64,000 nucleotides of DNA from Acidibrevibacterium fodinaquatile (GTDB taxonomy: Bacteria > Pseudomonadota > Alphaproteobacteria > Acetobacterales > Acetobacteraceae): NCBI RefSeq assembly GCF_003352165.1, contig NZ_CP029176.1, forward strand, positions 2,983,501-3,047,500, written 5' to 3'. Position numbers and translations under genes: made by a program. The notes under the pieces were generated by a model. It saw only the letters and a program-made list of their open reading frames with translations, had not been told where the DNA came from and did not search any database. This document shows, in pieces, positions 6,329 through 42,883 of the stretch; within the stretch, counting starts at the first letter, position 1; each line of letters starts with the position of its first letter.

Positions 6329-6357
6329 TCCAGGAAATCAGGATAAAAGTCTTTTTG

Positions 6358-6381: not shown

Positions 6382-6418
6382 AGTCTCGTCTCCCCCTTCA
6401 ACGACAAAGCGAACGACC

Positions 6419-7663: not shown

Positions 7664-7739
7664 TCGGCGCTGATCTCTGGAATTCGCCCGGGATTGGTTC
7701 TATGTGCATCAGCAGCAAACCCAATCACGGTCGGACAAC

Positions 7740-8228
7740 ATGCGCAAAGTCTGGGATCTGTCGTGGCGGCTGGTGATCGGTCTCGTGGCGCTCGGCGGGC
7801 TGGTTCTGGCCACGGCCTGCACCGGCACGCCCGCGAATAGCACCTATAGCGGCTACGGGGTCGGCCGCACCGCCTATGTCACCTATGGCACCATCGTCTC
7901 GATGCGCAATGTCGTCGTCCAGGGCGGCGATAGCGGCGTTGGCACCATCGGCGGCGCGGCGCTCGGCGGGGTTGCCGGCAGCTTCATCGGCGGCAATAGT
8001 TTCCGCGGCAATCTGCTTGGCGCGGTCGGTGGCGCGCTGCTCGGCGGTCTCGTCGGCAATACCGCCGAGAGCGAGCTGAGCAAGGGCAACGCGGTCGAAT
8101 TCATCATCCGCCAAGATGATGGGCAGACGATTTCCGTGGTGCAGACCAATGAGAATAATTTCCGCCCGGGTCAACGCGTCGCCATCATTCGCGGCGATCG
8201 CACGCGGCTTGCGCCAATCTATGGCTGA
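7740..8228 (+). CDS. Glycine-zipper outer-membrane lipoprotein (SlyB-like)
   Basis: Secreted lipoprotein candidate: positively charged start (MRKVWDLSWR), a hydrophobic run, then a lipobox ending in TAC with the lipidated Cys about residue 25 from ATG 7740. The mature part holds two Gly-zipper segments (GTIGGAALGGVAGSFIGG and GAVGGALLGGLVGN) as in SlyB and 17-kDa surface antigens. A basic/acidic C-terminus (VEFIIRQDDGQ, GQRVAIIRGDRTRL) follows. The open frame starts at 7704, but the 12 preceding residues are polar, which argues for 7740. 162 aa. Probable role in outer-membrane integrity, inferred from family. Confidence 0.85.
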   Translation: MRKVWDLSWRLVIGLVALGGLVLATACTGTPANSTYSGYGVGRTAYVTYGTIVSMRNVVVQGGDSGVGTIGGAALGGVAGSFIGGNSFRGNLLGAVGGALLGGLVGNTAESELSKGNAVEFIIRQDDGQTISVVQTNENNFRPGQRVAIIRGDRTRLAPIYG

Positions 8229-8293
8229 CGTCGAGCCGGCACGGGTGGCGCGGTGATTGCCCTCGCCGGCTGCCTGAGCTATGCGCGAGCCGT

Positions 8294-9184: not shown

Positions 9185-9188
9185 GCCC

Positions 9189-10036
<848 letters not shown>

Positions 10037-22296: not shown

Positions 22297-23162
22297 ATGA
22301 CCCTGTTCGAGAACATCAAGCCGGGCGCCCGGCTCCGCGGCCTGGACGGCGGCGGCATCGCCGAGATCGTGCAGGTCGCGCGCTTCGGGGCAGATGCGCT
22401 CAACCTGGTCTTTCGGGTCAATGGCCGCGTCGCGGAACGTCTTGTCTATCGCGGCGAGGAAACCGCTTTCGAACTCGTCGAGGCCGGCCGGGCTCTGGGC
22501 TTTGACGCCGACGGCGGACTGCTCCGGCTGGCCTCGGAGGCCTACCGGATCCGCCTCGCCCACCTTTTCGACCCCTACCTGGCCGTTAGCGCCTCCCAGA
22601 TCGAGGCGCTGCCCCACCAGATCACTGCGGTCTATGGCGAGATGTTGCCCCGCCAGCCGCTCCGCTTCCTCCTCGCCGATGACCCGGGCGCGGGCAAGAC
22701 CATCATGGCGGGGCTGCTGATCAAGGAACTCCTGATCCGCGGTGATCTGGATCGCTGCCTGATCGTGGCGCCCGGCAGCCTGGTCGAGCAGTGGCAGGAC
22801 GAACTCTCCGAGAAGTTCGGGCTGCGCTTCGACGCGCTGACCCGTGATCAGATCGAGGCCTCCGTCACTGGCAACCCCTTCGCCGAGTGCCGCCGGCTGA
22901 TCATGCGGCTCGACATGGCCGCCCGCTCGGACGAGCTGAAGGCAAAGCTTGTCGCCGCGCCCGAATGGGACCTCGTGATCTGCGACGAGGCGCACCGGAT
23001 GTCGGCCTCCTATTTCGGGGGCGAGGTCAAGGAAACCCAGCGCCACAAGCTCGGCAAGCTGCTTGGCACCCGCACCCGCAACCTGCTGCTGATGTCGGCG
23101 ACCCCACACAACGGTAAGGAGGCCGATTTCCAGCTCTTCATGGGGCTATTGGATGCTGACCG
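22297..23162 (+). pseudogene. SNF2/DEAD-type helicase, N-terminal part, split by IS21
   Basis: N-terminal 288 codons of a superfamily 2 helicase. Walker A is ADDPGAGKTIMAGLLIKELL (conserved part DDPGAGKT), the DEAH box is VICDEAHRMSA, and motif III is LLLMSATPHNG. The frame is broken at DADR by an IS21 element with a 7-bp target duplication. Joining 22297-23162 to 25813-28450 restores a single 1167-aa frame. A TATAAG box at 22284-22289 is only 7 bp before the ATG, so transcription could be nearly leaderless. First gene of the defence-like string. Confidence 0.88.
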
Positions 23163-23340
23163 TGCAGATTCCGACGGAAGCCGGCCGGGGATTCCGATTT
23201 GATGTCGGCCAGCGTTCCGATTTGAAGCCGGCCACCATTCCGATTTAATTCCGGCCACCTGGCGGGGATTTTTCAGCGTTTTCGGCTGGGTCAGCAACTC
23301 GGGCAACTGTCCTCTCGTTACCATCAACGAGGAGGGCTGG

Positions 23341-24882
23341 ATGCCGGCGAAGAGAGAGCTGACGATGCGGCAGATACGACAAACCTTACGGCTGGCCAGT
23401 GACGGCATCAGCGCCAGGGCGATGGGGCGGATGCTGGGCGTGGCGCGGAGCACGATCCAGGACAATCTGAAGCGGGCGCAGGCAGCGGGGCTGGCGTGGC
23501 CGTTGCCGGCCGACCTCAGTGATGCGGTTTTGGAGGAGCGGCTGTTTGCCCGCAGCGGCGCGCCGCGGGGGGTGCGCCGGCGCGCCGAGCCGGTCTGGAG
23601 CGAGCTGGTCTGCGAGCTCAAGCGCCCGGGCGTGAACCTGATGGTGCTGTGGGAGGAATATCGCGCCGGGCATCCGGAAGGGTACAGCTACAGCCGGTTC
23701 TGCGATTTGTTCAGGGAGTTCGAGGCACGGCTGTCACCGGTCATGCGCCAGGAGCACCGGGCGGGCGACAAGGTGTTCGTCGATTATTCCGGCAAAAAGT
23801 TGGGCATCACCGATCCCGCAACTGGCATCGTGCGCATGGCGGAGATTTTTGTCGCGGTGCTGGGCGCGTCGAACTACACCTACGCGGAGGCGAGCTGGAC
23901 CCAGACGCTGCCGGATTGGATCGGCGCGCATAGCCGCATGTTCCGGTTTTTTGGCGGCGTGCCGCGGCTGATCGTGCCGGATAATCTGAAGTCCGGCGTC
24001 AACAAGGCGTCGTTCTACGATCCAGAGATCAACCTGAGCTATGGCCGGATGGCCTCGCATTACGGTGTTGGTGTTTTGCCGGCCCGGCCGCGGCGCCCGA
24101 AGGACAAGGCGAAGGTGGAAGCCGGTGTCCGCTTTGCCCAGAGCTACATTCTGGGCCGGTTGCGCCAGCAGACTTTCTTCTCTCTGGCTGAAGCCAACCA
24201 GGCGATTGCCGGCATGGTGGAGCGGATCAACGCGCATGTCATGCGCAGGCTCGGCGTCAGCCGGCGGCATTTGTTCGAGACGATCGAACGCCAGGCTTTG
24301 GCGGCATTGCCAGAGACCGACCATGAGTTTGCGGAGTGGGGTTTTGCCCGCGTCTCGCTGGATTATCATGTCGAGGTCTGCGGCTTTTTCTACTCGGTGC
24401 CGCATCAGCTGATCCGCCAGCAAGTCGATACCCGCGCCACCGAGCGGATGGTTGAGATCTTCCACCAAGGCAAGCGGGTCGCGGTGCATCAGCGCCGCTA
24501 TGGCGGTCCAAGGCACGGCACTGCCCCTGAGCATATGCCGAGCGCGCACCGGCGCTACGCCGCATGGACGCCGGAGCGGTTCCGCTCATGGGGCGCATCG
24601 ATCGGCCCGCAGACCGAGGGGCTGATCATCGCCATCCTCGCCAACCGGCCGCATCCGGAACAGGGGTTTCGGACATGCCTTGGCATCCTGCGGCTGTTCA
24701 AGGAGTTGGACCGTCCGCGCGCCGAGGCGGTGGCGGCCCGAGCGGTCGCCTTTGGCGCGTTCAACTACAAGAGCATTGCCTCGATCATCGCCAGCAAGCT
24801 CGACCAGACGGCCAGCCCGCCAGATGAGGCGCAGGCGGTGCTGACCCACAGCAATCTGCGCGGCGCCGAATATTTTCACTGA
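23341..24882 (+). CDS. istA: IS21 transposase IstA
   Basis: 513-aa DDE transposase of IS21. An N-terminal helix-turn-helix (MRQIRQTLRLASDGISARAM) precedes the catalytic core. The DDE residues are in VFVDYSGKKL, LIVPDNLKSGV and KDKAKVEAGVRFA. The C-terminal part (Mu-type beta barrel) ends with a region contacting IstB. Followed 21 bp later by istB in the same operon. Appears intact. Confidence 0.95.
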   Translation: MPAKRELTMRQIRQTLRLASDGISARAMGRMLGVARSTIQDNLKRAQAAGLAWPLPADLSDAVLEERLFARSGAPRGVRRRAEPVWSELVCELKRPGVNLMVLWEEYRAGHPEGYSYSRFCDLFREFEARLSPVMRQEHRAGDKVFVDYSGKKLGITDPATGIVRMAEIFVAVLGASNYTYAEASWTQTLPDWIGAHSRMFRFFGGVPRLIVPDNLKSGVNKASFYDPEINLSYGRMASHYGVGVLPARPRRPKDKAKVEAGVRFAQSYILGRLRQQTFFSLAEANQAIAGMVERINAHVMRRLGVSRRHLFETIERQALAALPETDHEFAEWGFARVSLDYHVEVCGFFYSVPHQLIRQQVDTRATERMVEIFHQGKRVAVHQRRYGGPRHGTAPEHMPSAHRRYAAWTPERFRSWGASIGPQTEGLIIAILANRPHPEQGFRTCLGILRLFKELDRPRAEAVAARAVAFGAFNYKSIASIIASKLDQTASPPDEAQAVLTHSNLRGAEYFH

Positions 24883-24903
24883 TTTCCACTGAAAGGAACA
24901 AGC

Positions 24904-25656
24904 ATGCTCACCCACCCGACCCTCGACCTGCTGCACAAACTCGGCCTGCACGGCATGGCCAAAGCCTTCAAGGACCTCGACGCCCGGCCGGAGGTTGCCG
25001 GTTTGGCCCATGGCGAATGGCTGGCTTTATTGCTCGAGCACGAGGCCACGTTGCGACAGCAGAAACGCTTCGAGAGCCGCGCCCGCGCGGCCAAATTGCG
25101 CCAGTCCGCCAGCGTCGAGGATGTCGATTACCGCGCCCCGCGCGGCCTCGACCGGGCACAGTTCCTGAAACTCGCCAGCTGTGACTGGGTGCGCGCCCGG
25201 CATAATCTGCTCATTACCGGCCCCTGCGGGGTCGGCAAAAGCTGGCTGGCCTGCGCGCTGGGCCAGAAGGCTTGCCGCGAGGATCTCTCGACCGCCTATC
25301 ACCGGGTGTCGCGGCTGTTCTCTGCCCTGGCGCTGGCCCGCGCCGATGGCCGTTACGCCAGAACACTGCGCCAGATCGCCAGGCTCGACCTGTTGATTTT
25401 GGACGATTGGGGCCCCGAGACCCTGAACGCGGACCAACGCCGCGATCTGCTGGAAATTATCGATGACCGCCACGAGATGCGCTCCGTCATCATCACCAGC
25501 CAAGTGCCGGTCGAGCGCTGGTACGAAATCATCGGCGATCCCACCATCGCCGACGCCATCCTCGACCGCCTCGTCCACAACGCCTACCGCATCGAACTCA
25601 CCGGCGAGAGCCTCCGTAAAAAGCGCGATCCGGCACCGGCCCACGCCCGAACTTGA
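24904..25656 (+). CDS. istB: IS21 helper ATPase IstB
   Basis: 250-aa AAA+ ATPase that assembles with IstA for target choice and transposition. Walker A is GPCGVGKSWLACALG, Walker B is LLILDDWG, and sensor I lies in [25 protein letters not shown] box precedes the ATG. Appears intact, so the element may still be active. Confidence 0.95.
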   Translation: MLTHPTLDLLHKLGLHGMAKAFKDLDARPEVAGLAHGEWLALLLEHEATLRQQKRFESRARAAKLRQSASVEDVDYRAPRGLDRAQFLKLASCDWVRARHNLLITGPCGVGKSWLACALGQKACREDLSTAYHRVSRLFSALALARADGRYARTLRQIARLDLLILDDWGPETLNADQRRDLLEIIDDRHEMRSVIITSQVPVERWYEIIGDPTIADAILDRLVHNAYRIELTGESLRKKRDPAPAHART

Positions 25657-25812
25657 CCCAAAACAAGGACACGATAATCATTCAACCAGACCCAACCGAA
25701 GACGCTCAGGTGGCCGGCTTCAAATCGGAACCCCGGCCGGCTTCAGTTCGGAAGCAGTGGCCGGCTTCAAGTTGGAATGCATGGCCGACTTCATCGGAAT
25801 CCGCACTGACCG

Positions 25813-28450
25813 CTTTGAGGGACGGTTCCGCGAAGGCGTCCACAAGGCCGATGTCTCGGACATGATGCGCCGGCTCACCAAGGAGGAGCTCTACCGCTTC
25901 GACGGCACGCCGCTATTCCCTGAACGCCGCGCCTATACGGCCAGCTACGAACTCTCTCCGCTGGAAGCCGATCTCTATCAGGCCGTCACCACCTATGTGC
26001 GCGAGGAGATGAACCGCGCCGACCGCAACGCTGACGGCGCACGACGGAACAATGTCGGCTTCGCTCTGCAGATTTTGCAGCGACGCCTCGCTTCCTCGCC
26101 GGCTGCCATCCATCGCTCGCTTGAGCGGCGGCGCAAGCGCCTGGAAGACCGGCTACGCGAGGAGCGGATCGGGCGCGACACCGCCGCCGCGAAGCTGACG
26201 CCCGGCCCCGTGCTCCCCGCCTATGATCCGGACGAGATCGACGAGGCGCCCGGCGCGGAGGCCGAGGCGCTTGAGGAAAAGATCGTCGATTCGGCGACCG
26301 CCGCGCAGACGCTGATGGAACTGGACGCGGAGATCACGATCCTCAAGGATCTCGAGGCCCGCGCACTCCGGCTGAAACTCTCCGGCCAAGACGCCAAATG
26401 GCGCGAGCTCGAAAGCATTCTCGACGAGCCGATCATGCTCGATGCGGCCTCGGGCCTGCGCCGGAAGATCCTGATTTTCACCGAGCCCAAGGACACGCTC
26501 GACTATCTCGCGGACAAGATCCGTGGCCGCGTAGGCGACGCCCAGTCCGTCGTCGTCATTCACGGCGGCATCGCCCGCGAGGCTCGCCGTGCCGCCATCG
26601 CCGCCTTCAACAGCGATCCGGTGGTCCGGGTGATGATCGCCAACGATGCCGCCGGCGAGGGGGTGAACCTCCAGCGCGGCGCGCATCTGATGGTCAACTA
26701 TGACCTGCCCTGGAACCCCAACCGGCTCGAGCAGCGCTTCGGCCGCATCCACCGCATCGGCCAGACCGAGATCTGCCATCTCTGGAATCTCTGCGCCACC
26801 AACACCCGCGAAGGCGAGGTTTATCGACGGCTTCTGGATAAGCTGGAGGAAGCGCGAAAGGCCCTCGGCGGCAAAGTTTACGACGTGCTTGGCGAACTCT
26901 TCGAAGGCCAGGCTCTGCGTGACCTGCTCGTTGACGCGATCCGCTACGGCGAGCAGCCTGAGAAGAAGGCTGAGCTCTTCCGCAAGGTCGATGGCGCGGT
27001 GGACGTCGCTTCCATCGAACGGCTGGTGGCCGAGCGCAAGCTGACCTCCGAGGGCATGGACCCGAATGCGGTTGCCGCCATCCGCGAGGAGATGGAGCGC
27101 GCCCAGGCCCGCCGCCTGCAACCGCATTTCATCGGCGCCTTCTTCCGGGAAGCGTTCTCCACCCTCGGCGGGCGCATCCTTGAGCGCGAACGCGGCCGCT
27201 TCGAGATCACCCGAGTTCCGTCCATCCTGAAGGAACGCGACCGGCTGATCGGTCGCGGCGATCCGGTCTTGGACCGCTATGCCCGTGTCACCTTCGACAA
27301 GGCGCTGATCCCCGGCCAGCCGCAAGCCGAACTGCTGGCGCCCGGCCACCCGCTGCTAGACGCCGCGGTGGAGGTTGTGCTCGAGCGCTTTCAGCCGTTG
27401 CTTGGGCAGGGCGCCGTGCTGGTGGACGATGCCGATCTTGGCACTGCCCCGCGCCTGTTGCTTTATCTCGAGCATGCCATCCGCGATGGCCGCACGGCCA
27501 AGTCGGGCGAGCCGCGCGTCGTCTCCCAACGTCTCCAGTTCATCCACCTCGGCGAAGACGGCGGTGCTGCGGATGGCGGCTCGGCGCCCTATCTCGACTA
27601 CCGGCCGATTACAGAAGACGAGCGCGCGCTCGTCGCCGATGTGGTAGCGGCCCCTTGGCTCGGCGCCGGCGTCGAGCAGCGCGCCCTCGGCTTCGCGATC
27701 GCCGACCTCGTCCCTGCCCACCTTGACGAGGTGAAGCGGCGGCGGTTTGCCGAGATCGACAAGGTGGAGCGTGAAGTGCGCGCCCGCCTCACCCGCGAGA
27801 TCAACTATTGGGACGCCCGCGCCGCCCGCCTGCGTGAAGAAGAGCGGGCCGGCAAGGAGCAGCGCATCAACGCCACCAATGCCGAGGCAACCGCCCAGCG
27901 CCTCGTCGAGCGCCTGCACACCCGCCAGGCCGAACTCGATCGCGAGCGCCAGATCAGCGCCCTGCCGCCAGTGTTGCGCGGTGCCGCGCTGGTCATTCCA
28001 CGCGGCCTGCTTGACGCTCGCGCCGCCCCCTCGGCCGCCCCAAAAGTGGCGGGCTTTGCCGATGATCCTGATGCCCGCGCCGAGATCGAACGCCGTGCCA
28101 TGGAGGCGGTCATGGCCACCGAGCGCGAGCGGGGTTTTGATCCACGCGACGTCTCCGCCGAAAAGAAGGGCTGGGACATCGAGAGCCGGACGCCTTCCGG
28201 CCATCTCCGCTTCATCGAGGTGAAGGGGCGCCACGCGGAGGCGCGCGACGTGATCCTGACCAAGAACGAGATCCTCGCCTCGCTCAACGCGCCGGAGGCG
28301 TTTTTCCTCGCCATCGTGCGCGTCGATGCCGGCTTTGCCCACGCCCCCGTCTATGTCCAGCGCTTCTTCCAGCGCGAATTGGGCTTCGCCGAGACCGCCG
28401 TGGTGTTCAACCTGGACGACCTGCTTTCGCTTGCTGCCCCTGCCGCGTGA
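25813..28450 (+). pseudogene. SNF2 helicase, C-terminal part with DUF3883-like domain, split by IS21
   Basis: Second part of the split helicase, in frame from FEGRFREGVHKADVSDMMRR. Motif V/VI region: NDAAGEGVNLQRG and NRLEQRFGRIHRIGQTE, as in SNF2/RapA-like remodelers. A long coiled and charged region follows. The last ~110 residues, GWDIESRTPSGHLRFIEVKG and around, match DUF3883, a domain related to restriction-endonuclease folds (here the E-V-K of RFIEVKG). On its own this part has no natural start. Stop at 28448. In helicase-methylase-ATPase defence loci this protein is the helicase component. Confidence 0.87.
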
Positions 28451-30932: not shown

Positions 30933-33253
30933 GTGACGACCGTCCGCAAGAAACTCATCGAAGTCTCAATCCCGCTGGAGGCGATCAACGCCGCCTCGGC
31001 GCGGGAAAAGTCGATCCGGCATGGGCATCCGTCCACGCTGCATCTGTGGTGGGCGCGCAGGCCGCTGGCGACGTGCCGCGCGGTGTTGTTCGCGCAACTG
31101 GTGGATGATCCGTCCGCTTGGCCCGACCGGTTCCCGACCGAGGAGGCGCAGGAGGCAGAGCGGAAGCGGCTGCACCGGGTCATCGAGGCCATGGTGCCGT
31201 GGGAGGCCTCGAACAACGAGGCGATCCTGAACGCGGCGCGGTGGGAGATTGCGCGCTCGGTCGCGTGGGGCCTGGGCGAGGAGCCGCCGGCGCGCGACGA
31301 TGGGCGGGCGATCCTGGACTATCTGCAGACCAAGGCGCCGCCGGTCTATGATCCGTTCTCGGGCGGCGGGTCGATCCCGCTGGAGGCGCAGCGGCTAGGG
31401 CTGCGCGCCTATGGCTCAGACCTCAATCCGGTCGCCGTGCTGATCGGCAAGGCGCTGGTGGAGATCCCGCCGAAATTTGCCGGCCGCCCGCCGGTCAACC
31501 CGCGCGCGCAGACGGAAGCGGTGCACGGCCAGCTTCGCGGTTGGCGCGGCGCGCAAGGGCTGGCCGAGGATGTCCGCTATTACGGGCAATGGATGCGCGA
31601 CGAGGCTTCACTCCGCATCGGGCATCTCTATCCAAAGGCGACGCTGCCGGACGGGTCGCAGGCGACGGTGATCGCTTGGCTCTGGGCACGCACGGTACGC
31701 TCGCCCGACCCGAGGGCGAAAGGCGCGATGGTGCCGCTGGTCTCCTCGTTCCTGCTCTCCACCAAGGAGGGGAAGAAAGCCTGGGTCGAGCCGGTGATCG
31801 ATCCCGAAGCACCGGATGGCTGGCGCTTTGAGGTGCACACGGGGACGCTCTCGAAGGTGGATGAGGAGCGGCTGAAGAAGGGGACGAAGACCGGGCGTGG
31901 CACGCATTTTACGTGCGTTCTGACGGGTGCCGCGATCGATGGTGATCACGTAAAGGCTGAAGGTGTCGCAGGGCGCATGCAAGCGCGGCTTATGGCAATC
32001 GTTGCCGAAGGCAATCGCTCCCGTGTCTATCTGGCACCAAGCCCCACGCACGAGGAACTTGCAGAAACGGCGCGGCCTGAGTGGGTACCAGAGGGGAATC
32101 TGCCCGACGATCCGCGGAACTTTTGGACCGTCCAGTATGGTCTCAAAACGTTTGCCTCACTCTTCACCCCCCGCCAGTTGGTGGCGCTGACGACCTTTTC
32201 CGATCTCGTGGCCGAGGCCCGAGAAAAGGTGCTGGCCGACGCCCTGGGAGCGCGGGCGTCCCGCCCGCATTCCCCCCTCACGCCCAAAGCCGAATGGCAC
32301 TCCCGCCGCGGCCTGCCGCATTGGGAAGCCGGCGAGACGCCGCAATCCATCACCTTCCGCTTGGCCGATTCCCTGCCCCGCGATGTGATCGAACGCCTCA
32401 GCGAAGCGCGGGCCTCCGGTTTGCCTGCGGGCGAGACGCCCGCGCTCCAACGACAACGCTTCGAATCCCTGCTCGATTCCGGCCACGGCGAATGCCTCCT
32501 CGCGCGGCCCGAGCTTGCCGCAATCGTCGAAAACGCCCTGCTGCATTTCCATGGCACGCGCTATCGGCTGCATGCTTGGTGCATCATGCCCAATCATGTG
32601 CATGTGTTGGCAACGCCGCTACACGGGTTTTCGCTCTCCTCGATCGTGCATTCATGGAAATCGTTCACCGCGAAAGCGATCAACGCCGCGCTCGGGCGCA
32701 GCGGCGCGGTGTGGTTTGAGGAGTATTTCGACCGCGCGATCCGCGATGACGCGCATTTCGCTGCCGCTCAAGCCTATATCGAGGCCAATCCGGTGAAAGC
32801 CGGGCTGTGCGCGGCGCCGGAGGCGTGGGCGTTTTCGAGCGCGGGAGAAAAGGGGCGCAATCGTCTCGACCACATGCGGGCGGGACGCCCGCGCTCCGTT
32901 GACGAAATCCCCCTCCACGAAGGCGGCACCGGCGCTGCGGCCTACGCCGATGCGGTGGCGACGTATTTGGCATTGGTGGTTGGTCGCTCTACTGATGCCT
33001 GGAGTTCGATTACGTCATGGGCTTCGACAGGAGAGTTCATCCGTAACACGTTTGCACGTCAGGCGATCCCGATGGTTTGGGATTTCTCAGAGTGCAATCC
33101 GTTCAGTGGATCGACCGGAAATTTCAATAACGGTGTCGAATGGACCAGTGAGGCGCTCGCATGTGTGAGTGCGGCCGTATCAGGCTCAATCAGCCAAATT
33201 AGAGCTCAGAGAAACAACTACCCCGTGCGGCCCGTCCTTATTTCAACCGACCC
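30933..33253 (+). pseudogene. DUF1156-type adenine DNA methylase, N-terminal part, with in-frame RAYT, split by IS256
   Basis: Starts at GTG 30933 after GAGGGGAA, 18 bp behind the previous gene. The DUF1156 N-terminus is KKLIEVSIPLEAINAASARE with HPSTLHLWWARRPLATCRAV. The SAM motif is PVYDPFSGGGSIPLEAQRLG. From residue about 440 to 654 a REP-associated transposase is inserted in frame. The methylase then resumes (PLHEGGTGAAAYADAVATYL) and is cut by IS256 inside STDPPYY, the catalytic motif. The first part joined to 38351-39545 gives one 1171-aa frame. It should modify adenines at sites of the defence system. Confidence 0.87.
32252..32892 (+). mobile_element. RAYT (REP-associated Y1 transposase) inserted in frame in the methylase
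   Basis: The segment encodes a RAYT: SRRGLPHWEAGETP, ITFRLADSLP, the HUH motif in IMPNHVHVLATPLHGFSL, SIVHSWKSFTAKAIN, WFEEYFDRAIRDDAHFAAAQ and the Tyr in YIEANPVKAGL. It is bounded by inverted copies of the palindrome GCGGGCGTCCCGCCCGC (32252-32268 and 32876-32892). Including flanks the inverted match is about 24 bp. A third related palindrome is inside at 32427-32443. It has no own ATG near its N-terminus, so it is read only as part of the methylase, unless an internal GTG is used. Confidence 0.85.
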
Positions 33254-33275
33254 GGTGGCGTCGTGAAGTGTGTGG

Positions 33276-34444
33276 AACGTATGGCCCGCCCCGCCTGCAA
33301 GTGATTTTTCCGATGGACTGGTCAGTCTGCGTCAACGTATCCGGCCTCAGAGCAAGCTCTCGACCAAGATGGAGATCCGCGCGCTCTGGTTCTCATAATT
33401 CTGTCGGCGACAAGTCCGCCATTCCACACATCAGATTTCCAGAACGTATGGCCCGCCCCGCCTGCAAGTGATTTTTCCGATGGACTGGTCAGTCTGCGTC
33501 AACGTATCCGGCCTCAGAGCAAGCTCTCGACCAAGATGGAGATCCGCGCGCTCTGGTTCTCATAATTCTGTCGGCGACAAGTCCGCCATTCCACACATCA
33601 GATTTCCAGAACGTATGGCCCGCCCCGCCTGCAAGTGATTTTTCCGATGGACTGGTCAGTCTGCGTCAACGTATCCGGCCTCAGAGCAAGCTCTCGACCA
33701 AGATGGAGATCCGCGCGCTCTGGTTCTCATAATTCTGTCGGCGACAAGTCCGCCATTCCACACATCAGATTTCCAGAACGTATGGCCCGCCCCGCCTGCA
33801 AGTGATTTTTCCGATGGACTGGTCAGTCTGCGTCAACGTATCCGGCCTCAGAGCAAGCTCTCGACCAAGATGGAGATCCGCGCGCTCTGGTTCTCATAAT
33901 TCTGTCGGCGACAAGTCCGCCATTCCACACATCAGATTTCCAGAACGTATGGCCCGCCCCGCCTGCAAGTGATTTTTCCGATGGACTGGTCAGTCTGCGT
34001 CAACGTATCCGGCCTCAGAGCAAGCTCTCGACCAAGATGGAGATCCGCGCGCTCTGGTTCTCATAATTCTGTCGGCGACAAGTCCGCCATTCCACACATC
34101 AGATTTCCAGAACGTATGGCCCGCCCCGCCTGCAAGTGATTTTTCCGATGGACTGGTCAGTCTGCGTCAACGTATCCGGCCTCAGAGCAAGCTCTCGACC
34201 AAGATGGAGATCCGCGCGCTCTGGTTCTCATAATTCTGTCGGCGACAAGTCCGCCATTCCACACATCAGATTTCCAGAACGTATGGCCCGCCCCGCCTGC
34301 AAGTGATTTTTCCGATGGACTGGTCAGTCTGCGTCAACGTATCCGGCCTCAGAGCAAGCTCTCGACCAAGATGGAGATCCGCGCGCTCTGGTTCTCATAA
34401 TTCTGTCGGCGACAAGTCCGCCATTCCACACATCAGATTTCCAG
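33276..34444 (+). repeat. Seven tandem copies of a 167-bp unit
   Basis: Unit starts AACGTATGGCCCGCC and ends CAGATTTCCAG. Copies begin at 33276, 33443, 33610, 33777, 33944, 34111 and 34278. I see no differences between copies, implying recent amplification or gene conversion. No gene is encoded; short frames in it are artefacts. It lies 22 bp inside the left IS256 end and ends where IS110-related DNA begins (AACACCGATCG). There is no spacer variation, so it is not a CRISPR array. The 10-mer CATAATTCTG in the unit recurs once at 36976-36985 near the IS256 transposase. Confidence 0.95.
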
Positions 34445-34537
34445 AACACCGATCGACTGTCAGGCCATCTTTCTTCCACCACCCGCAAACATCATGGACC
34501 GGTAGCCGATCATCATATCAGCACCGGTCGATTTCGG

Positions 34538-34725
34538 TCACACCGTCACACCAACGGCTTTGGCGTCAAATTTGTCGCCGTGACGTAAGACGGCCCACGC
34601 AATCCGTGCCAGCTTATTGGCCAATGCGACGACTACGGCGTTCTTATGCACCCTGGTGATCAGCCCCCGCAGCCATCCGCCGAGTGGCGTGGCGCTGGTC
34701 AGCAGACCTGGCAGGGCGGAGCGTG
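34538..34725 (-). pseudogene. IS110-family transposase, C-terminal part, split by IS3
   Basis: The minus strand encodes SALPGLLTSATPLGGWLRGL, then ITRVHKNAVVVALANKLARI and a short tail to the TGA at 34538. This is the Transposase_20-side C-terminus of an IS110/IS1111 transposase. It joins the N-terminal part at 36051 as LIHGARSALPG once the IS3 and one copy of its 3-bp duplication are removed. The 93 bp to the tandem repeat is non-coding and probably belongs to the IS110 end. Confidence 0.85.
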
Positions 34726-34764
34726 TGAACCGCGCCGGGTTTTCCGGAGGCTGTTTTGTTTGAG

Positions 34765-35670
34765 TCAGGCCACCATGGCCAGCTCGTTCAGTTGTTCATA
34801 GTAGCGCGCCTCGGCCTCGGCGGGTGGGATATTTCCGATCGGCTCGAGGAGGCGGTTGTGATTGAACCAATGGACCCACGCGAGGGTGGCGAATTCCACG
34901 GCTTCGAGGTTGTGCCACGGTCCACGGCGGTGGATCAGTTCGGCTTTGAACAGGCCGTTGATCGTCTCGGCCAGCGCATTGTCGTAGGAATCGCCGATGC
35001 TTCCGACCGAGGGTTCGATGCCGACCTCGGCAAGCCGCTCGGTGTAGCGGATGCTGACATATTGCGAACCCCTATCGCTATGGTGGACCAGCCCAGCCCG
35101 CTGGGCGGGCCTCCGGTCATGCAGCGCCTGCTCGAGGGCATCGAGCACAAAACCGGTTTCGGCCGAGCGCGACACCCGCCAACCGACGATCCGCCGCGCG
35201 AAAGCATCGATGATGAAAGCGACATAGACGAACCCCTGCCAAGTGGCGACATAGGTAAAATCGCTCACCCACAGCATGTTCGGCCGTGGCACTCGGAACT
35301 GCCGGTTGACCTTGTCGCGCGGACAAGGGGCAGCCGGGTTGCTTATCGTGGTCTTTATCATCTTGCCACGGATCGCCCCGGCTAGTCCCATCTGCCGCAT
35401 CAGCCGCGCCGTTGTGCAACGGGCGATCTTTATCCCTTCCCGGCATAATTGCCGCCAGACTTTGCGCACGCCGTAGACCTGGAAATTCTCGTCCCAGACC
35501 CGACGGATCTCCGCCTCCAGCGCGCGATCACGCCGGGCACGGGGCGGCAAACGATCCGGCTTGGCACGACGCGCCGCATGCTCGTGATAGGTCGACGGGG
35601 CGATCGGCAATAGCTTGCAGATCGGCTCGACCCCGTGGACATCGCGATGCGCGTCGATGAACGCGATCAT
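34765..35670 (-). CDS. IS3 transposase OrfB
   Basis: 301-aa integrase-like DDE transposase. Catalytic residues are in [32 protein letters not shown] and [18 protein letters not shown]. The N-terminal HTH_21 region is [17 protein letters not shown]. Overlaps orfA by 4 bp. IS3 elements usually make the active OrfAB by a -1 frameshift near this junction. Appears intact. Confidence 0.95.
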
Positions 35671-35999
35671 GGCTTGGCGCGGCGGTCGAGCTCCGCCGCT
35701 GCAAAATATGCCGATGCCTTGCGCAGGATCTCGTTCGCCTGCCGCAATTCACGGTTCTCCCGTTCCAGCGCCTTGATCCGCTCCTGCTCGGCACTGGTCG
35801 GCCCAGGACGCACTCCGCGATCGCGCTCCGCCTGGCGCACCCACACACGCAGCGTTTCCGCCGTGCAACCAATCTTCGCCGCTATCGAGCCGATCGCTTC
35901 CCATTGCGAAGCGTGATCCTTGCCATGATCCAATACCATCCGCACCGCGCGCTCGCGGACCTCAGGTGAAAATCTGTTCGATGTCTTCCTCTGTTCCAT
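35667..35999 (-). CDS. IS3 OrfA (helix-turn-helix protein)
   Basis: 110-aa DNA-binding protein of IS3. The N-terminal HTH is [20 protein letters not shown] with [18 protein letters not shown] leucine-zipper-like helix follows ([20 protein letters not shown]). Its TGA overlaps the ATG of orfB. Appears intact. Confidence 0.94.
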
Positions 36000-36050
36000 C
36001 GCTCTATCCTACCCAAGAAAGGGGGCCTCCGGGATTCCCGGTGCGGTTCA

Positions 36051-36912
36051 GTGCACCATGGATCAACTGCTTGCGCAGATATTTGTTGCCGCGCTTGCTG
36101 ATCCCGACAAGCCGGGGTCGTCCGCCTGTCGTGATCTGACGCGGCACCAAACCCAGCCAGGCGGCAAGATCGCGGCCATGACCGAAACTCTCACCCTTGC
36201 CGATCGCGGCGATCAGCGCGGTGGCGTTGACCGGGCCGATACCAGGGATCGAAAGCAGCCTGCGGGCCGCCTCATCGGCGCGGGCACGAGCAACAAATTC
36301 GTCGTCGAAAGCCTCGATCCGGTGATCCAGTTCGCGCCATTCCTTCCGCATGTCGGCAATGAGCGCTTGCGTTCGTGGAGACAACGCGATGCTACCTCCG
36401 TCGTTCTGATCGAACCGCCCCACCAGATATTGCGCGAGCTTGCTCCGCCCCTTTGGCACGGTAATCCCCCGTTCAAGAAGGATAGCGCGTAGCTGATTGA
36501 TCAGCGCCGTACGTTCCACCACCAGGCGATCCCGCGCCCGATGCAACGTCTGCACGTCAAGCTGTTCCTCGCTTTTGAGATCTACAAAGCGCATCGTCGG
36601 CCGGGTCGCTGCTTCAGCGATCGCCTCGGCGTCCCGATCATCGTTCTTCTGCGCTTTCACATACGGGCGCACATATTCCGGCGACATCAGCCGGACCGTG
36701 TGACCCTGAGCCGCCAACAGCCGCCCGAGATAATGGGCGCCACAGCATGCCTCCATGGCGATCACACACGCCGGGATCTTCGCCGTAAAGGCCGTCACGC
36801 TGTCCGGCCGCATCCGGCGCCGTTTCACCACCGCGCCGCTCGCATCCAACCCCGCGAGACTGCAACTGTTCTTGCCCAGATCGATCCCCAATACCGCGAT
36901 CTCTTTCGTCAT
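36051..36912 (-). pseudogene. IS110-family transposase, N-terminal part, split by IS3
   Basis: From ATG 36912 (MTKEIAVLGIDLGKNSC): DEDD-type catalytic residues in GIDLGKN, CVIAMEACCGAHYLGRLL and KNDDRDAEAIAEA. Then LLSIPGIGPVNATALIAAIG and SKRGNKYLRKQLIHGA. The frame appears to continue to 36004, but those last residues ([12 protein letters not shown]) are encoded by the inserted IS3. The true C-terminus lies at 34538-34725. Ends of the IS110 itself are not defined; it sits between the tandem repeat and the IS256 transposase leader. Confidence 0.88.
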
Positions 36913-37052
36913 GGCACTTTCCTTTCGCTGGCCCCAGCAGACTATACACCGCCGGGGGAAAGGAGCGGGCCATCCCATAATTCTGGGTGGCGTAATCTCC
37001 GGGTGAGTTCAACCACCAGACTCGGCGTTGTCGCGCCGATGGAGATCACGCC

Positions 37053-38276
37053 ATGGAGAAGAATAGCACGGGAACGCCGGAAGCCAGCCTTTTTGATGGA
37101 GAGGGCTGGTTCGACGCGATTGAGGCGGGGGTGCGGGATCGGATCCGCGGGTTCATCGAGAACATGCTGGAGGAGGAGCTGACGACGGCGCTGGGGCGGG
37201 AGCGATATCGCCGTGGTGGCGAGGCAACAGGATATCGCCATGGTGTCCGTCATCGGCAAATCCTCGGCTCGTTCGGCCCGCTCGAGATTACGGTGCCGCG
37301 GGGGCGGATGCCGAAGCCCGGGGGTGGAACGGCGGAATGGCAAAGTGCCACGCTGCCTCGTTATGCCCGGATGACGAAGCAGGTGGAGGCGTTGATTGCG
37401 GCGACCTATCTCGCCGGCACGAACACGCGGCGGGTAAGGCGGGCATTGGGGGCGTTGTTCAAGGGGGCAGTGGGCAAGGACGTGGTCAGCCGCACGTGGA
37501 GAAAGGTCAAGGCGGACTGGGACGGCTGGAACCGGCGGAGCCTGGCCGACGAGGATACCGTCAGGCTGATCCTCGACGGCACGGTGGTGAAGGTCCGGCT
37601 CGACCGGAAAGCGACCAACATCTCGCTGCTGGTCGTTCTCGGCGTCCGCCGCGACGGGCAGAAGGTTTTGCTGGCGGTGAAGAACATGGGTGGCGAGAGC
37701 GAGGCCGCCTGGCGGGCGGTGCTCGATGACCTGATCGCGCGGGGTCTGCGGACGCCGGACCTGTTGCTGATCGATGGCGGTGCCGGCCTCGAACGCGCCC
37801 TGGCCAGCCTTTGGCCCGAGGTGCCGACCCAGCGCTGCACAGTCCACAAGCATCGAAATCTGCTCGCGCACGCTCCCGAGGCGCTGCACGAGGAGATCAC
37901 GGCCGACTACAACGACATGATCTACGCCGATACCAGCGCCGAGGTGATGCGCCGGCGCCGGCTGTTCCTGGCCAAATGGCGCCTGAAATGCCGCGGTGTC
38001 GCCGACAGCCTTGAGGAAGCCGGCGATCGGCTGTTCACCTTCACCCGATTGCCCAAAAGCCAGTGGAAATCGGCAAGAACGACGAATGCGATCGAACGCC
38101 TGCACGAGGAGTTCAAGCGCCGGATCAAAACCCAGACCGTCCTGCCTTCGGCAGAGACCGCGGCGATGCTGTTCTGGTCATTGCTCGCATCCGGGCAGGT
38201 CACCATGCGCAAAGTCGACGGGTGGCAGAGCCTCGGAGAGCCACCCGCCTCAATGCCTCTTGATCTCGTCGCCTGA
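37053..38276 (+). CDS. IS256-family (mutator-type) transposase
   Basis: 407-aa DDE transposase. Catalytic motifs: VRLILDGTVVKVRLDRKATN (D), LLLIDGGAGLERALASLW (D), CTVHKHRNLLAH and TTNAIERLHEEFKRRIKTQT (E). The N-terminus includes LEEELTTALGRERYRR and ATGYRHGVRHR. Appears intact; the only complete gene belonging to the IS256 copy. The right IS end follows 66 bp after the stop. Confidence 0.95.
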   Translation: MEKNSTGTPEASLFDGEGWFDAIEAGVRDRIRGFIENMLEEELTTALGRERYRRGGEATGYRHGVRHRQILGSFGPLEITVPRGRMPKPGGGTAEWQSATLPRYARMTKQVEALIAATYLAGTNTRRVRRALGALFKGAVGKDVVSRTWRKVKADWDGWNRRSLADEDTVRLILDGTVVKVRLDRKATNISLLVVLGVRRDGQKVLLAVKNMGGESEAAWRAVLDDLIARGLRTPDLLLIDGGAGLERALASLWPEVPTQRCTVHKHRNLLAHAPEALHEEITADYNDMIYADTSAEVMRRRRLFLAKWRLKCRGVADSLEEAGDRLFTFTRLPKSQWKSARTTNAIERLHEEFKRRIKTQTVLPSAETAAMLFWSLLASGQVTMRKVDGWQSLGEPPASMPLDLVA

Positions 38277-38350
38277 CCTCGTCATGCTCCCCAAACCGGA
38301 GACGCCGCCAAAGGCAATTTCCACACAAACCGCGACGCCACCACCGACCC

Positions 38351-39545
38351 ACCCTATTACGACAATATCGGCTACGCCGATCTCTCGGATTTCTTCTATG
38401 TCTGGCTGAAGCGTTCGCTTGGCGACGTCTGGCCCGAGCTGTTTCGGCGCCTGACGACACCGAAAGGCGAAGAGCTTGTTGCAACCCCATACCGTCACGG
38501 CGGCAAGGAAGAGGCCGAAGCCTTCTTCATGCAGGGCATGGGCGAGGCGTTGGCGGCGATGCGTAAGGCGGCGACTGATGTAGAACCTCTGGCGATCTAC
38601 TATGCCTTCAAGCAATCCGAGATCGGCGAGGATGGCATCGTCTCGGCCGGCTGGGCATCTTTCCTTCAGGCCGTTGTTGACGCCGGCCTCGCTGTCGACG
38701 GCACATGGCCAGTTCGCACTGAGCGCAGCGCACGTAGCATCGGCATTGGCACTAACGCCCTCGCCTCCTCCATTGTCCTCGTCTGCCGAAAACGGAACAA
38801 AACCGCGCAGACCGTCACCCGCGCCGAATTCATCCGCGCGCTGAAGCGCGAGATGCCCGAAGCGGTGGACAAGATCCGCAAGGCGGGCGTCGGCCCTGTT
38901 GATATGCCGCAATCGGTCATCGGCCCCGGCATGGGCGTGTTCACCCGCTTTGCCCGCGTGCTGGAAGACGACGATTCCGCGATGAGCGTGAAAACCGCGC
39001 TCGCGCTGATCAACCGCGTCTGGGGCGAGATCGAAAACGATCTCGACGCCAATTTCGATCCGGCAACGCAAGTGGCCCTCGCCTGGTTCGCCACCTACGG
39101 TTTTGACGCGCGCGCGTCGGGCGACCTGATCACGCTCGCGAACGCGAAGAACATCCCGGTCGAAACGCTGTTCCGCGCCGGCGTGTTCCAAAATCTCCAC
39201 GGCAAGGCGTGCCTCACCCCACGGAGCGCGGGCGTCCCGCCCGCAAGCGAACGGGATGTCCGCGCTCCCAGCCAGTGGACCATCTGGGAATGCGTGCAGC
39301 GCACCGCCCACGCCCTCCGCGCTGAGGATGGCGGGGCCGAGGCCGCGGCGAAACTCGTGGCCAGCATGGGCCCCAAGGCCGAGGATGCCCGCGCGCTGGC
39401 CTATCGCCTCTATGAAATCGCCTCGCAGAAATCTTGGGCCACCGAGGCGCTGGTCTATAACGAACTCGCCCAGGAATGGGCGCATCTCGAAGATCTCGCG
39501 GCGCGCACCGGCGTGCGCGATCTGTTCGGGGAGGTCACGCGATGA
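38351..39545 (+). pseudogene. DUF1156-type adenine methylase, C-terminal part, split by IS256
   Basis: Continues the methylase from the DPPY motif (PYYDNIGYADLSDFFYVWLK follows the duplication). The downstream DUF1156 region includes GGKEEAEAFFMQGMGEAL, YYAFKQSEIGEDG and GTNALASSIVLVCRKR. A REP palindrome at 39223-39268 is translated as RSAGVPPASERDVRAPS. The stop overlaps the ATPase start (ATGA). Without the N-terminal SAM motif, this part alone cannot be an active methylase. Confidence 0.87.
39223..39268. repeat. REP-like palindrome inside the methylase coding frame
   Basis: GGAGCGCGGGCGTCCCGCCC at the left and TGTCCGCGCTCC at the right form an inverted pair around GCGGGCGTCCCGCCCGC. The same core bounds the RAYT at 32252 and 32892. 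It stays in frame and adds a short Ala/Pro/Ser/Arg-rich linker. Confidence 0.8.
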
Positions 39546-42500
39546 GCGCCGAGAAGGAAACCTTGAGCCGCGTCCAGGGCGCGCTGTATCACCTCCGTCA
39601 AGGCCTCGCGCCGTTCGTCGAGGCGCGGATGAAGGCGCGGCACGGCGCGCAGTGGCTTGCCTATGCCAGCCGCGCCGCCGGCGGCGATCCGCGCGCGCCG
39701 CTCGACGAATATGGCCTCCTGAAAACCATGATCGACCAGTGGCGGGACGTGTTCGATGATGCGTTCGCGCGGGCCGAGAAGCAGCGCGTGCGCAATTTCG
39801 TCTCGACCGCCCTCGAGGCGCGCAACGCGACGGCACATCTCTCGATCCCGATGCAGGATGACGAGGCGCTGCGCTATCTCGATGCCATCCACCACCTGCT
39901 TCGCGCTGTGCGCGCACCAGACGCCGATATCGCCGAAGCCAGGCGGCTCTATGACGACCAGCGCCGCCATGGCCTCGCGGGGAGCGCGGACGTCCCGTCC
40001 GCCACGGCGCCCGCGCCGGTGGGCGCTGGCGAACGCGGGCAGGATACCCGCGCCCCCAGACCGTGGATCGAGGTGGCGCTGCCGCACCCGGACGTGCTCG
40101 CCAACCGCTTCAAGGAAGCCGAGTTCGCGGCGGATCTGTTCGCGGTCGATGCTGGGATCGCCGGCGAGGGCTACGCGACACCGCCCAGCTTCTTCGCGAT
40201 GACGTTTCTCACCGAAGGGCTGAAGCGCGTGTTGGCCTCCGCCCTGAAACGCTTGTCCGGCCAGGGCGGCGACCCGGTGATCGGGCTGCAGACCGCGTTC
40301 GGCGGCGGCAAGACGCACACGATGCTCGCGGTCTATCATCTCGCCCGGCACCTGCGCGACGGCGGCGATCCCGCAACCCTCAGCGGCATGAGCCCACTGG
40401 TCGGGACCGCCGGCGCGACCGCCTGGCCGAAGCCGCAGATTGCCGTGTTCGTCGGTTCGTCGAAGGGCGCGGATGTGTCGCTAACCCTGAAAGACGGGCC
40501 GAAGCTGCACACTCTGTGGGGCTATCTCGCCTGGCGCCTTGCTGGCCCGGCAGGGCTCACGCTGGTCGCTGAAGCCGAAGCGGCGCGCACCAACCCCGGC
40601 TCCGAACTGATGGTGGAGGTGTTCCGCCTGGCGGGGCCGAGCGTGATCCTGCTCGATGAGCTGGTGATGTTCGCCCGGCAACTGGACGATGCGAGGTTCG
40701 AGGCGTTCCTCTCGTTCCTCCAGTCGCTGACCGAGGCGGCGAAGATGGTGCCGGGCGTCCTGGTGATCGGCTCGCTGCCGGAGAGCGACGCCGAGGCCGG
40801 CGGCGCGCGCGGCAAGGAAGCACTGCTGCGGCTGGAGAAAGTGTTCGGGCGCGTGCAGTCCGCCTGGCTGCCGGCCTCGGGCGACGAGACCTATGAAATC
40901 ATCCGCCGCCGGTTGTTCCAACCGCTGGATGCCGACGGCGAGCGGGCGCGGGATGAGACGGTGCGCGCGTTCGCCGATCTTTACCGGAAGAACCCGGCCG
41001 AGTTCCCGCCCGAGGCGCGGGAGGCGCGCTATACGGAGCTGCTACGCCTCTCCTACCCGATCCATCCCGAGCTGTTCGATCGGCTGTCGAAGGACTGGGC
41101 GAGCCTGGAGAAATTCCAGCGCACCCGTGGCGTGCTGCGCTTCATGGCGAACGTGGTGGGCGTGCTGTGGCACCAGCGGGTGCCAGACGCGTTGATCCTG
41201 CCCGCGCGCGTGCCAGTTTCGCACGAGCGGGTGCGCGCGAGCGTGCTCTATCCGCTGGACCCGGCGTTTGGCGCGGTGGTGGACAAGGAGGTGGATGGGG
41301 ATAGCGCGCTGCCGTCGCGGATGGAGGCCAACCCGTCCCGCCGCATCTCCCAGGCGCATGCCGCGACGCGCGCGGCGCGTGCCGTTTTCCTGTGTTCGGC
41401 GCCGCTGGTGGGCCAGCCTAATGCCGGGCTGACCGGGCAAGGCTTGCGGCTGGCCTGCGCCGAGCCGGGCGACCAGTTGGCGATCTTCGGCGAGGCGCTG
41501 CGCGAACTCTCCGAGCGGGCGACTTACCTGTATGAGGAAGCTGGCCGCTATTGGTTCTCCACCCAGCCGACGCTGAACCGCTTGGCCGAGGATCGCGCGA
41601 AGGCGCTGGCGGAGCATGAGGTGGACGAGGCGATCGCGCAGGTGCTGCGCGACGATGGGGCCAGCAAGGACCGGTTCCATCGCGTGTTCGCGGTGCCGGA
41701 CGATCCAACCGCGATCGACGAGGTGCACGCACTGTCGCTGATGATCCTCGGCCCGGCGACGCCGCATGCGGGCAAGGGTGTCGCGAAGTCCGCCGCGACC
41801 GAGGCCGTGACCGACGCGCTGACCCGTTGCCGGGCGTCACAGCGGCGGTTTCGCAACACGCTGCTGTTCGTCGCCGCTGACGAGGCCCTGCTGGGCACGG
41901 CGCGGGAGGCGATGCGGCGGGCGCTGGCGTGGGAGTCGATCGGCGGTGATGCGCGGCAGGACAAGCGTGTGGATAAGCGGCTACAGGATCAACTCACCCA
42001 GGCCCAGCTGGCGGACGCGCATGACAAGGCCAGGAACAGCCGCGAGGGAGCGGTGAAGGCGGTGCGTGGCGCGTGGAGCCACATCCTGTTCCCGATCAAG
42101 ACCGATGGCACCGAGGCTGGCCGCGCGTTCGATCTGGATCATCTTTCGCTGACCGCCAAGGATCGCGCTTGCGTGCCCGCCGCGGTGTACGACAAAGCAA
42201 AGAGCGACGGCATCATCGGCGAGAAGCTCGGCGCCGATGCGCTGTGGCTGCACCTCAAGCCACTCTGGGCGGAGGACAAACCGCATTTGCCGGTGGCCGA
42301 GATCGCGGCGTGGTTCGCGACCTACGTCTATCTGCCGAAGCTGCGAGATCGCGTGGTGCTGGAGGCAGCGATTCGCGATGCCTGTGCCAAGCTCGATCCG
42401 GCCTTCGCCTTCGCCGAGCGCTTCGATGAGGCAACCGGCCGCTATGTCGGGCTTGTCTGGCAGAAGGCGCCGGGCGAGCCGCTACCGCCGACTTCGGTGC

Positions 42501-42883
42501 TCGTGCGCCCCGAGGTGGCGATCGCCCAGTTGCGCCCGGTCGCGACGCCCGCTCGGCCGGCGACGGTCTTGGGCGGCCCGGATGGCCAATCGTACGGGCA
42601 TGACAGGGGATCTCCCGGCACGGATCCTGGTCCGCCCGCCAAGGTGCAGCCGCGTCGGTTCTATGGCTCGGTCGAGATCGACATGGTGCGGCCGGTGAAG
42701 GCGTTCGATGCCATCCTGAACGCGGTCGTCATGGAATTGCAGCGCACCAACTGTGCCAAGGTGACGCTGACCCTGGAAATCGAGGCGACGGCGCCGGACG
42801 GGTTCGCCGAGGCCGATATTGGGGTTGTCCGCGACAACGCCCGCCAGCTCAAGTTCAAGGATGAATCAACGGGATTCGAGTGA
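39542..42883 (+). CDS. DUF499-type AAA+ ATPase with N-terminal HEPN-like (Swt1-type) domain
   Basis: 1113-aa ATPase, the third core component beside helicase and methylase. The N-terminal ~110 residues resemble the Swt1 HEPN domain, with an R-x4-H motif R94...H99 (ARNATAHLS), the RNase signature of HEPN folds. A REP-derived linker follows at about 147-172. Walker A is FGGGKTHT (253-260) and Walker B is VILLDELVMFA. The C-terminus (YGSVEIDMVRPVKAFDAILN) carries the family tail. ATG 39542 overlaps the methylase stop. The gene is intact, unlike its two partners. Confidence 0.88.
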   Translation: MSAEKETLSRVQGALYHLRQGLAPFVEARMKARHGAQWLAYASRAAGGDPRAPLDEYGLLKTMIDQWRDVFDDAFARAEKQRVRNFVSTALEARNATAHLSIPMQDDEALRYLDAIHHLLRAVRAPDADIAEARRLYDDQRRHGLAGSADVPSATAPAPVGAGERGQDTRAPRPWIEVALPHPDVLANRFKEAEFAADLFAVDAGIAGEGYATPPSFFAMTFLTEGLKRVLASALKRLSGQGGDPVIGLQTAFGGGKTHTMLAVYHLARHLRDGGDPATLSGMSPLVGTAGATAWPKPQIAVFVGSSKGADVSLTLKDGPKLHTLWGYLAWRLAGPAGLTLVAEAEAARTNPGSELMVEVFRLAGPSVILLDELVMFARQLDDARFEAFLSFLQSLTEAAKMVPGVLVIGSLPESDAEAGGARGKEALLRLEKVFGRVQSAWLPASGDETYEIIRRRLFQPLDADGERARDETVRAFADLYRKNPAEFPPEAREARYTELLRLSYPIHPELFDRLSKDWASLEKFQRTRGVLRFMANVVGVLWHQRVPDALILPARVPVSHERVRASVLYPLDPAFGAVVDKEVDGDSALPSRMEANPSRRISQAHAATRAARAVFLCSAPLVGQPNAGLTGQGLRLACAEPGDQLAIFGEALRELSERATYLYEEAGRYWFSTQPTLNRLAEDRAKALAEHEVDEAIAQVLRDDGASKDRFHRVFAVPDDPTAIDEVHALSLMILGPATPHAGKGVAKSAATEAVTDALTRCRASQRRFRNTLLFVAADEALLGTAREAMRRALAWESIGGDARQDKRVDKRLQDQLTQAQLADAHDKARNSREGAVKAVRGAWSHILFPIKTDGTEAGRAFDLDHLSLTAKDRACVPAAVYDKAKSDGIIGEKLGADALWLHLKPLWAEDKPHLPVAEIAAWFATYVYLPKLRDRVVLEAAIRDACAKLDPAFAFAERFDEATGRYVGLVWQKAPGEPLPPTSVLVRPEVAIAQLRPVATPARPATVLGGPDGQSYGHDRGSPGTDPGPPAKVQPRRFYGSVEIDMVRPVKAFDAILNAVVMELQRTNCAKVTLTLEIEATAPDGFAEADIGVVRDNARQLKFKDESTGFE
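39981..40056. repeat. Paired REP-like palindromes (REPIN) inside the ATPase coding frame
   Basis: Two inverted REP-like hairpins, GCGGACGTCCCGTCCGC at 39986-40002 and GCGGGCAGGATACCCGC at 40035-40051, bracket a GC-rich core. They are read as GSADVPSATAPAPVGAGERG plus QDTRAP, a linker between the HEPN-like and ATPase domains. Sequence is more diverged than the copies bounding the RAYT. Confidence 0.75.

Follow-up and report, generated by a model that had tools for sequence, protein, structure and literature searches.

The window, which is the whole 64,000-nt stretch of DNA analysed (contig 1 of genome G000, positions 2983501-3047500), contained an island of the Hma type. The ORF at 30933-33266 encoded 777 amino acids and carried a DUF1156 domain at residues 13-82 (Pfam PF06634, E 4e-32). 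PADLOC named the encoded methylase HmaB (1.3e-202) and the adjacent DUF499 ATPase HmaC (Table 1). Domain, profile and neighbour together placed the host gene in the DUF1156/HmaB class. Inside its frame lay a complete REPtron of 651 nt, consisting of a REP, a RAYT and an inverted REP and free of stop codons. A single frame ran from the methylase through the RAYT and back into the methylase (VDEIPLHEGGTGAAAYADAV). The proposal of the first-pass annotation that a RAYT is inserted in frame inside a DNA methylase was thereby confirmed by Pfam, the RAYT profile NF047646 and the continuous host-RAYT-host frame.

Table 1. Features of the methylase region, in positions of the window.
Feature	Position	Strand	Basis
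DUF1156/HmaB methylase, N-terminal part up to the insertion loop	30933..32246	+	Pfam, PADLOC; empty homologues continue with a short loop
Left REP: GGAG outer tag and hairpin, read in frame as GARASRPH	32247..32270	+	24-nt inverted repeat
RAYT (TnpA-REP, HUH/Y1), read in the methylase frame and lacking an N-terminal start and a stop	32250..32897	+	NF047646, catalytic residues, 4er8 match
Third REP core within the RAYT coding region	32427..32443	+	Repeat pattern
Right REP, inverted, read in frame as MRAGRPRS	32874..32897	-	24-nt inverted repeat
Host methylase resumes, VDEIPLHEGGTG...; includes the second hypervariable TRD-like segment	32898..33253	+	Homologue comparison
Methylase-breaking insertion: tandem array and transposase-like ORFs between 8-bp direct repeats	33254..38342	.	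Sequence
Methylase C-terminal part; another in-frame REP at 39223-39244	38343..39545	+	HmaB 635-958/967 for 38529-39542
DUF499/HmaC ATPase	39476..42883	+	PADLOC HmaC 5.2e-235

The RAYT was recognised at residues 529-635 of the ORF by the NF047646 profile REP_Tyr_transpos with 85.1 bits (cut-off 80). The HUH motif (PNHVH) and the catalytic tyrosine (YIEANPVKAGL), both noted in the first reading, were located in it. Like other RAYTs it was bounded by inverted REPs, here perfect 24-nt inverted repeats of REP form with a GGAG tag and a GC-rich hairpin. This bore out the REP bounds described earlier, and the borders then placed at 32252-32892 were slightly too narrow, the element spanning 32247-32897. 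The other class feature of RAYTs, an own ORF with start and stop, was missing. No in-frame ATG, GTG or TTG occurred between a GTG at 32229, outside the element in host sequence, and a TTG at 32361, within the RAYT. This agrees with the reported absence of a start where the N-terminus of the RAYT would be expected. No stop preceded the resumed host sequence. The host-side GTG at 32229 could act as the start of an internal product. The methylase frame was the only one of six without stops across the element, the other five holding 2 to 6. The GC content was 66.1% in the element and 66.5% in the upstream methylase, and a CT adjoined the left end (GCCCT/GGGAG). A search of the genome at E 0.01 returned no other RAYT, the window copy being the sole match.

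By profile and by fold, the best PDB match of the RAYT was 4er8 (TnpA-REP), with a Foldseek E of 7.6e-6. An AlphaFold model was computed for the protein of a close relative, L007, from a 29-row alignment (mean pLDDT 67.3, pTM 0.38). The RAYT was predicted as a mixed alpha/beta domain with block mean pLDDT of 61-92, placed after the host helix 428-457 and before the host helix 683-695. Weakly modelled linkers at 458-478 and 662-669 flanked it, and at this pTM the arrangement of the domains is not fixed by the model.

The methylase of the window was also split at its DPPY codons by an insertion of 5,089 nt, bracketed by 8-bp direct repeats (ACCGACCC) at 33246-33253 and 38343-38350. Because of this interruption, a protein of ~130 kDa is not expected from the window, and L005 or L007 offers better material for study of the fusion. 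Seven 167-bp tandem copies with 100% match were found at 33275-34447 within the insertion, and its ORFs resembled what we take to be IS3, IS110 and IS256 transposases. Upstream, a presumed helicase-like gene at 22297-28450, perhaps HmaA, appeared to be interrupted by two ORFs at 23341-25656, which we take to be IS21-like. Two Hma genes, the helicase-like gene and the methylase, may be broken in the window. An apparent degenerate REP pair was seen in frame in the DUF499/HmaC gene, near 39980-40060.

Relatives of the methylase were collected from genome contigs, where 259 stretches matched the search pattern and 247 encoded a relative; the best 80 of these 247 were kept. Four of the 80 (L031, L046, L053 and L055) stopped short of the site. 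Among the 76 scorable relatives, 67 had a short loop, eight carried an in-frame RAYT and one (L080) held another repeat peptide. The proportion of eight in 76 is not a frequency, as the query included the RAYT and the ranking therefore favours filled alleles. With 67 of 76 homologues short in the loop, the alignment suggested by the first-pass annotation defined the empty site, and the inserted segment is not native to the methylase family. The same fusion was sought in relatives, again as the annotation had advised, and was found as an open frame in L005 (1190 aa), L006 (1190 aa) and L007 (1192 aa). L005 equalled L006 in every block compared. L007 and L005 were at about equal distance from the window, so the Deltaproteobacteria title of L007 is no evidence of another phylum.

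Altogether, the eight same-loop in-frame RAYTs came from several phyla (L005-L008, L012, L017, L023 and L024), and the RAYT screens described below added two (L086 and L199). All eight inserts had lengths divisible by three and contained no stops. Seven of the eight frames reached a methylase-like C-terminus and L008 finished in a shifted frame; L017 and L023 start at contig ends. Filled alleles of several phyla had residues in common beyond the REPs, namely DYL on the left and QDD/QDA-I/V-PL on the right, and host residues were missing from the filled loops. These common junction residues speak for the transfer of a cassette together with short flanking sequence, and against a separate clean insertion in every case. 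Of the 41 empty alleles caught by the loop motif, 34 had an identical loop length and bore the residues that filled alleles lack. In L080, the repeat peptide FTAEDAEERR occupied the RAYT loop of a DUF1156 methylase (4989-9578); by eye, this methylase presumably also carries an intein-like stretch at its DPPY motif.

Two hypervariable segments were seen in the methylase, at 31878-32141 and 32952-33254, one on each side of the RAYT. They probably serve in target recognition. In the first segment, L007 matched the empty allele L010 at 87-93% and the window at 51-74%, whereas most other methylase blocks were 89-99% identical among the window, L005 and L007. A first methylase tree was discarded because the window had been entered twice and this segment, which is swapped between alleles, was included. 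In it, L007 was placed beside the empty L010 and the filled label changed 10 times, close to the shuffles (mean 10.5). It was replaced by a backbone tree of residues 1-312 with 80 rows, from which L017, L030 and L068 were dropped for coverage.

On the backbone tree, filled methylases (10 of the 80 rows) were rejected as one clade, with a log-likelihood lower by 421.5 and a p-AU of 4.5e-7. The filled label changed six times, five of these changes being forced by starred branches. It was more clustered than in shuffles (mean 9.6 changes, 0 of 500 as low), partly because the window and L005-L007 are near copies; these four formed one clade (97). The RAYT tree was built from 97 of 108 non-redundant RAYTs, after removal of 11 with unsuitable length or coverage. 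One 10-row cluster took in eight of the ten same-loop RAYTs together with L211 and L152, and those of L024 and L199 lay outside this main cluster in the free tree. All ten as one clade were not rejected (p-AU 0.44), nor were eight of them (0.92). The same-loop RAYTs are thus compatible with a single lineage, non-rejection being no proof of a clade. As the RAYTs can form one clade and their carrier methylases are rejected as one, the element changed hosts several times.

Among the window, L005 and L007, dN/dS was 0.06-0.29 for the RAYT and 0.04-0.06 for the N-terminal part of the methylase. The dS of the RAYT (0.05-0.11) was about half that of the methylase part (0.12-0.23). The element may home into the loop; the common junctions and the low RAYT dS would suit targeted insertion and short-flank cassette transfer alike.

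RAYTs were sought in genomes of four phyla, seed genomes counted: the window's own (299), Chloroflexota (301; the phylum of L024, by its title), Planctomycetota (294; that of L008) and Armatimonadota (201; that of L017). The window RAYT served as query in two screens and alignment A1 in two; the threshold was E 1e-20 in one window-RAYT screen and 1e-25 in the remaining three. Scoring was limited to the best candidates of each genome, which makes all counts lower bounds. The four phyla yielded at least 5 + 18 + 105 + 67 = 195 non-seed matches, and at least 29 of these were read in a single open frame that continued into host sequence at either end. The 29 hosts comprised 11 DNA methyltransferases (four DUF1156, four Eco57I-type, one Type ISP and two N6_N4_Mtase), nine FabZ, three AlaRS and six other enzymes, each found once: PurH, CarB, GH38, alcohol dehydrogenase, a FAD_binding_3/Oxidored_FMN protein and a DEAD/Helicase_C_2 helicase. 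Embedding confined to DNA methyltransferases was ruled out by these other hosts, some of which are housekeeping enzymes. Collapsed by host and loop, the cases reduced to 16 sites, eight of them in methyltransferases. Methyltransferases make up a minor part of the genes in a genome, and against that share eight of 16 sites makes them look over-represented as hosts. For L129, the downstream host side was assigned by reading alone, as was the upstream side for L187, L188, L190, L193 and L206; Pfam supported the other side in each. The first-pass annotation had treated the case as an isolated oddity, since RAYTs normally stand alone between genes. This did not hold, as in-frame RAYTs recur both in the same loop across several phyla and in unrelated enzymes.

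The FabZ hosts L189, L194, L195, L197, L198, L214, L215, L216 and L218 came from nine genomes of Planctomycetota, and their RAYT followed GAMLL or GAILM. Across these loci, host identity was 71-92% and RAYT identity 53-72%, and the two were correlated (r 0.53, Mantel p 0.005), which suggests from the sequences that RAYT and host have been inherited together for long. The FabZ locus L219 was left out of the count, its sequence after the RAYT being masked with N. Outside the screens, Entotheonella held a second RAYT in another loop of another DUF1156 protein (L097; L211). In L077, a RAYT stood between the methylase and the next gene.

Several further candidates were not counted as embedded. These were N-terminal fusions (L148, L151 and L182), a C-terminal fusion (L165), apparently fortuitous long open frames (L117, L154, L176, L184, L196, L217 and others) and L226, where a RAYT of another type sat in a DUF1156-like gene and the frame was lost afterwards. 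The MmeI-type L192 had 13 residues after the RAYT and was also left out, yet it is among the 38 loci tested for inverted repeats below. Frames shorter than ~300 aa, together with one of 376 aa (with stops) and one of 307 aa, were classed as free without being read. Relatives of the query RAYT were not found in plasmids (E 1e-20) or phages (E 1e-10), and none of the 39 stretches of viral contigs that matched the pattern was confirmed as one.

The H-x-H motif and the catalytic tyrosine were present in all 97 aligned RAYTs, 42 of them embedded or fused. A regular expression had missed the tyrosine motif in 11 embedded copies; it was too narrow, and the alignment shows the tyrosine. Inverted repeats were sought by comparing the 300 nt that precede the RAYT core with the 400 nt that follow it. 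A repeat of at least 18 nt surrounded 36 of the 38 embedded RAYTs on the tree, the exceptions being L190 and L208. Shuffled downstream sequence gave such repeats in 4 of 190 controls and the downstream sequence of another locus in 56 of 304, the latter because REPs of different loci look alike. GTAG, GTGG or GGAG tags were found on many embedded RAYTs, though not on all.

Exact matches to the REP 14-mer lay mostly or wholly inside the host methylase in G000 (4 of 5), G299 (6 of 6), G300 (6 of 6), G301 (6 of 7), G002 (4 of 6), G305 (3 of 3), G306 (1 of 1) and G303 (1 of 1, at L097). They were not confined to the host gene in G304 (2 of 6 inside), G654 (5, spread) and G727 (15, spread), and no exact match occurred in G302 or G989. 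The reversed 14-mer gave 0 to 3 matches per genome. An in-frame inverted REP pair replaced the ATLPDGSQ loop in L005, L006 and L007 and was absent from the window, L009, L010 and L011. This polymorphic pair likely reflects recent REP movement, on the evidence of the sequences compared, and does not itself identify the moving agent.

The window element shares with the REPtron/RAYT system (TnpA-REP, IS200/IS605-like HUH-Y1) the HUH motif and tyrosine, the inverted REP ends and, among its embedded relatives, many GTAG, GTGG or GGAG tags. According to PMC2817692, two inverted REPs invariably flank the RAYT ORF; the window element differs from these in lacking its own start and stop and in being read within a host protein. 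REP-containing DNA is cleaved at CT, and GTAG has a role, according to excerpts of PMC8266576. The CT next to the left end of the window element agrees with such cleavage. Intragenic REPs are already known in print. Parts of PMC3733652 describe REPs of the GTAG/CGTC families and Rickettsia palindromic elements in frame in genes, many of these REP-containing genes acting in replication and repair and some encoding tRNA synthetases. The stretches encoded there reach up to 82 amino acids, whereas the window frame holds a whole transposase. Excerpts of PMC6006769 treat domains added to RAYTs, not RAYTs inside host enzymes. In the text of a 2026 survey of BREX-related systems (PMC12839542), DUF1156 occurs a single time, and neither 'transposase' nor 'RAYT' occurs. 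A full-text literature search, covering few subscription papers and no bioRxiv preprints, yielded no recognised account of a whole RAYT set in frame within a host protein.

Inteins with homing endonucleases are also in-frame guests of conserved proteins and occupy the same site on different hosts. From what is generally known of them, the window element shares this habit and the single recurrent site, and it differs in its HUH nuclease and REP ends. Pfam found no splicing (Hint) domain in the 777-aa ORF, only DUF1156 and Y1_Tnp, and nothing suggests splicing of the element.

The embedding of RAYTs in host proteins is a recurrent variant of REPtron life, evident in both anatomy and phylogeny. 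We consider it likely that the window element is a protein-resident REPtron, that is, a whole REP-RAYT-REP unit in the HmaB loop, carried as an extra domain, able to move REPs and filtered to keep the frame. Expression, host tolerance and mobility of the embedded RAYTs are parts of this account that we infer. The host polypeptide would be made with the RAYT as an additional folded domain on flexible linkers encoded by the REPs. Whether within the host protein or as a separate product from an internal start, the RAYT would nick REP hairpins on single-stranded DNA and thereby move REPs or the element as a whole. Insertions that disrupt the frame or the fold would be purged, and the survivors would lie in tolerant loops, have a length divisible by three and contain no stop.

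It is unlikely, on balance, that the RAYT is a domesticated domain kept because it adds useful binding or nicking of DNA hairpins to the host enzyme. The intact active sites of all 42 embedded or fused copies, dN/dS below 1, the correlated divergence of RAYT and host in FabZ and the 11 methyltransferases among 29 hosts would agree with such a role. However, FabZ, PurH, CarB, GH38 and alcohol dehydrogenase have no obvious link to DNA, most sibling methylases lack the RAYT and the filled ones are not one clade. The range of host families and the scatter across the methylase tree agree better with a mobile element that loops tolerate than with a domesticated domain. Less probable still is one ancient fusion at this methylase loop that spread by descent and horizontal transfer with many losses. 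The junction residues common across phyla, the possible single clade of RAYTs and the somewhat clustered filled label are compatible with it, but the filled methylases were rejected as one clade, RAYTs also occur at other loops and in other proteins, and plain excision should not restore the residues seen in the 34 equal-length empty loops. Passive debris, a chance in-frame insertion into an already dead gene, is very improbable: the further 5,089-nt insertion and the apparent interruption of what we take to be the helicase region would suit it, but the fusion is one open frame in L005-L007 with dN/dS below 1 in both parts, and the pattern recurs in usually essential genes.

If the protein-resident REPtron is the correct explanation, a whole transposase can persist in working, even essential, proteins, with host function kept through frame and choice of loop and not through splicing. 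Proteins themselves then appear as places where mobile DNA of this kind lives. More tentatively, and with somewhat less than even confidence, the embedded RAYTs may represent a distinct transposon way of life: HUH elements without start or stop, whose transposase exists solely as a host-enzyme domain, which home into the same loop across phyla without splicing and favour horizontally transferred DNA methyltransferases. RAYTs are often called domesticated, and whether they still move would become directly testable. The fusions would also supply naturally occurring cases of very large loop insertions that are tolerated. In annotation, a long FabZ, AlaRS or methylase that contains a transposase should then be treated as a host protein carrying a guest.
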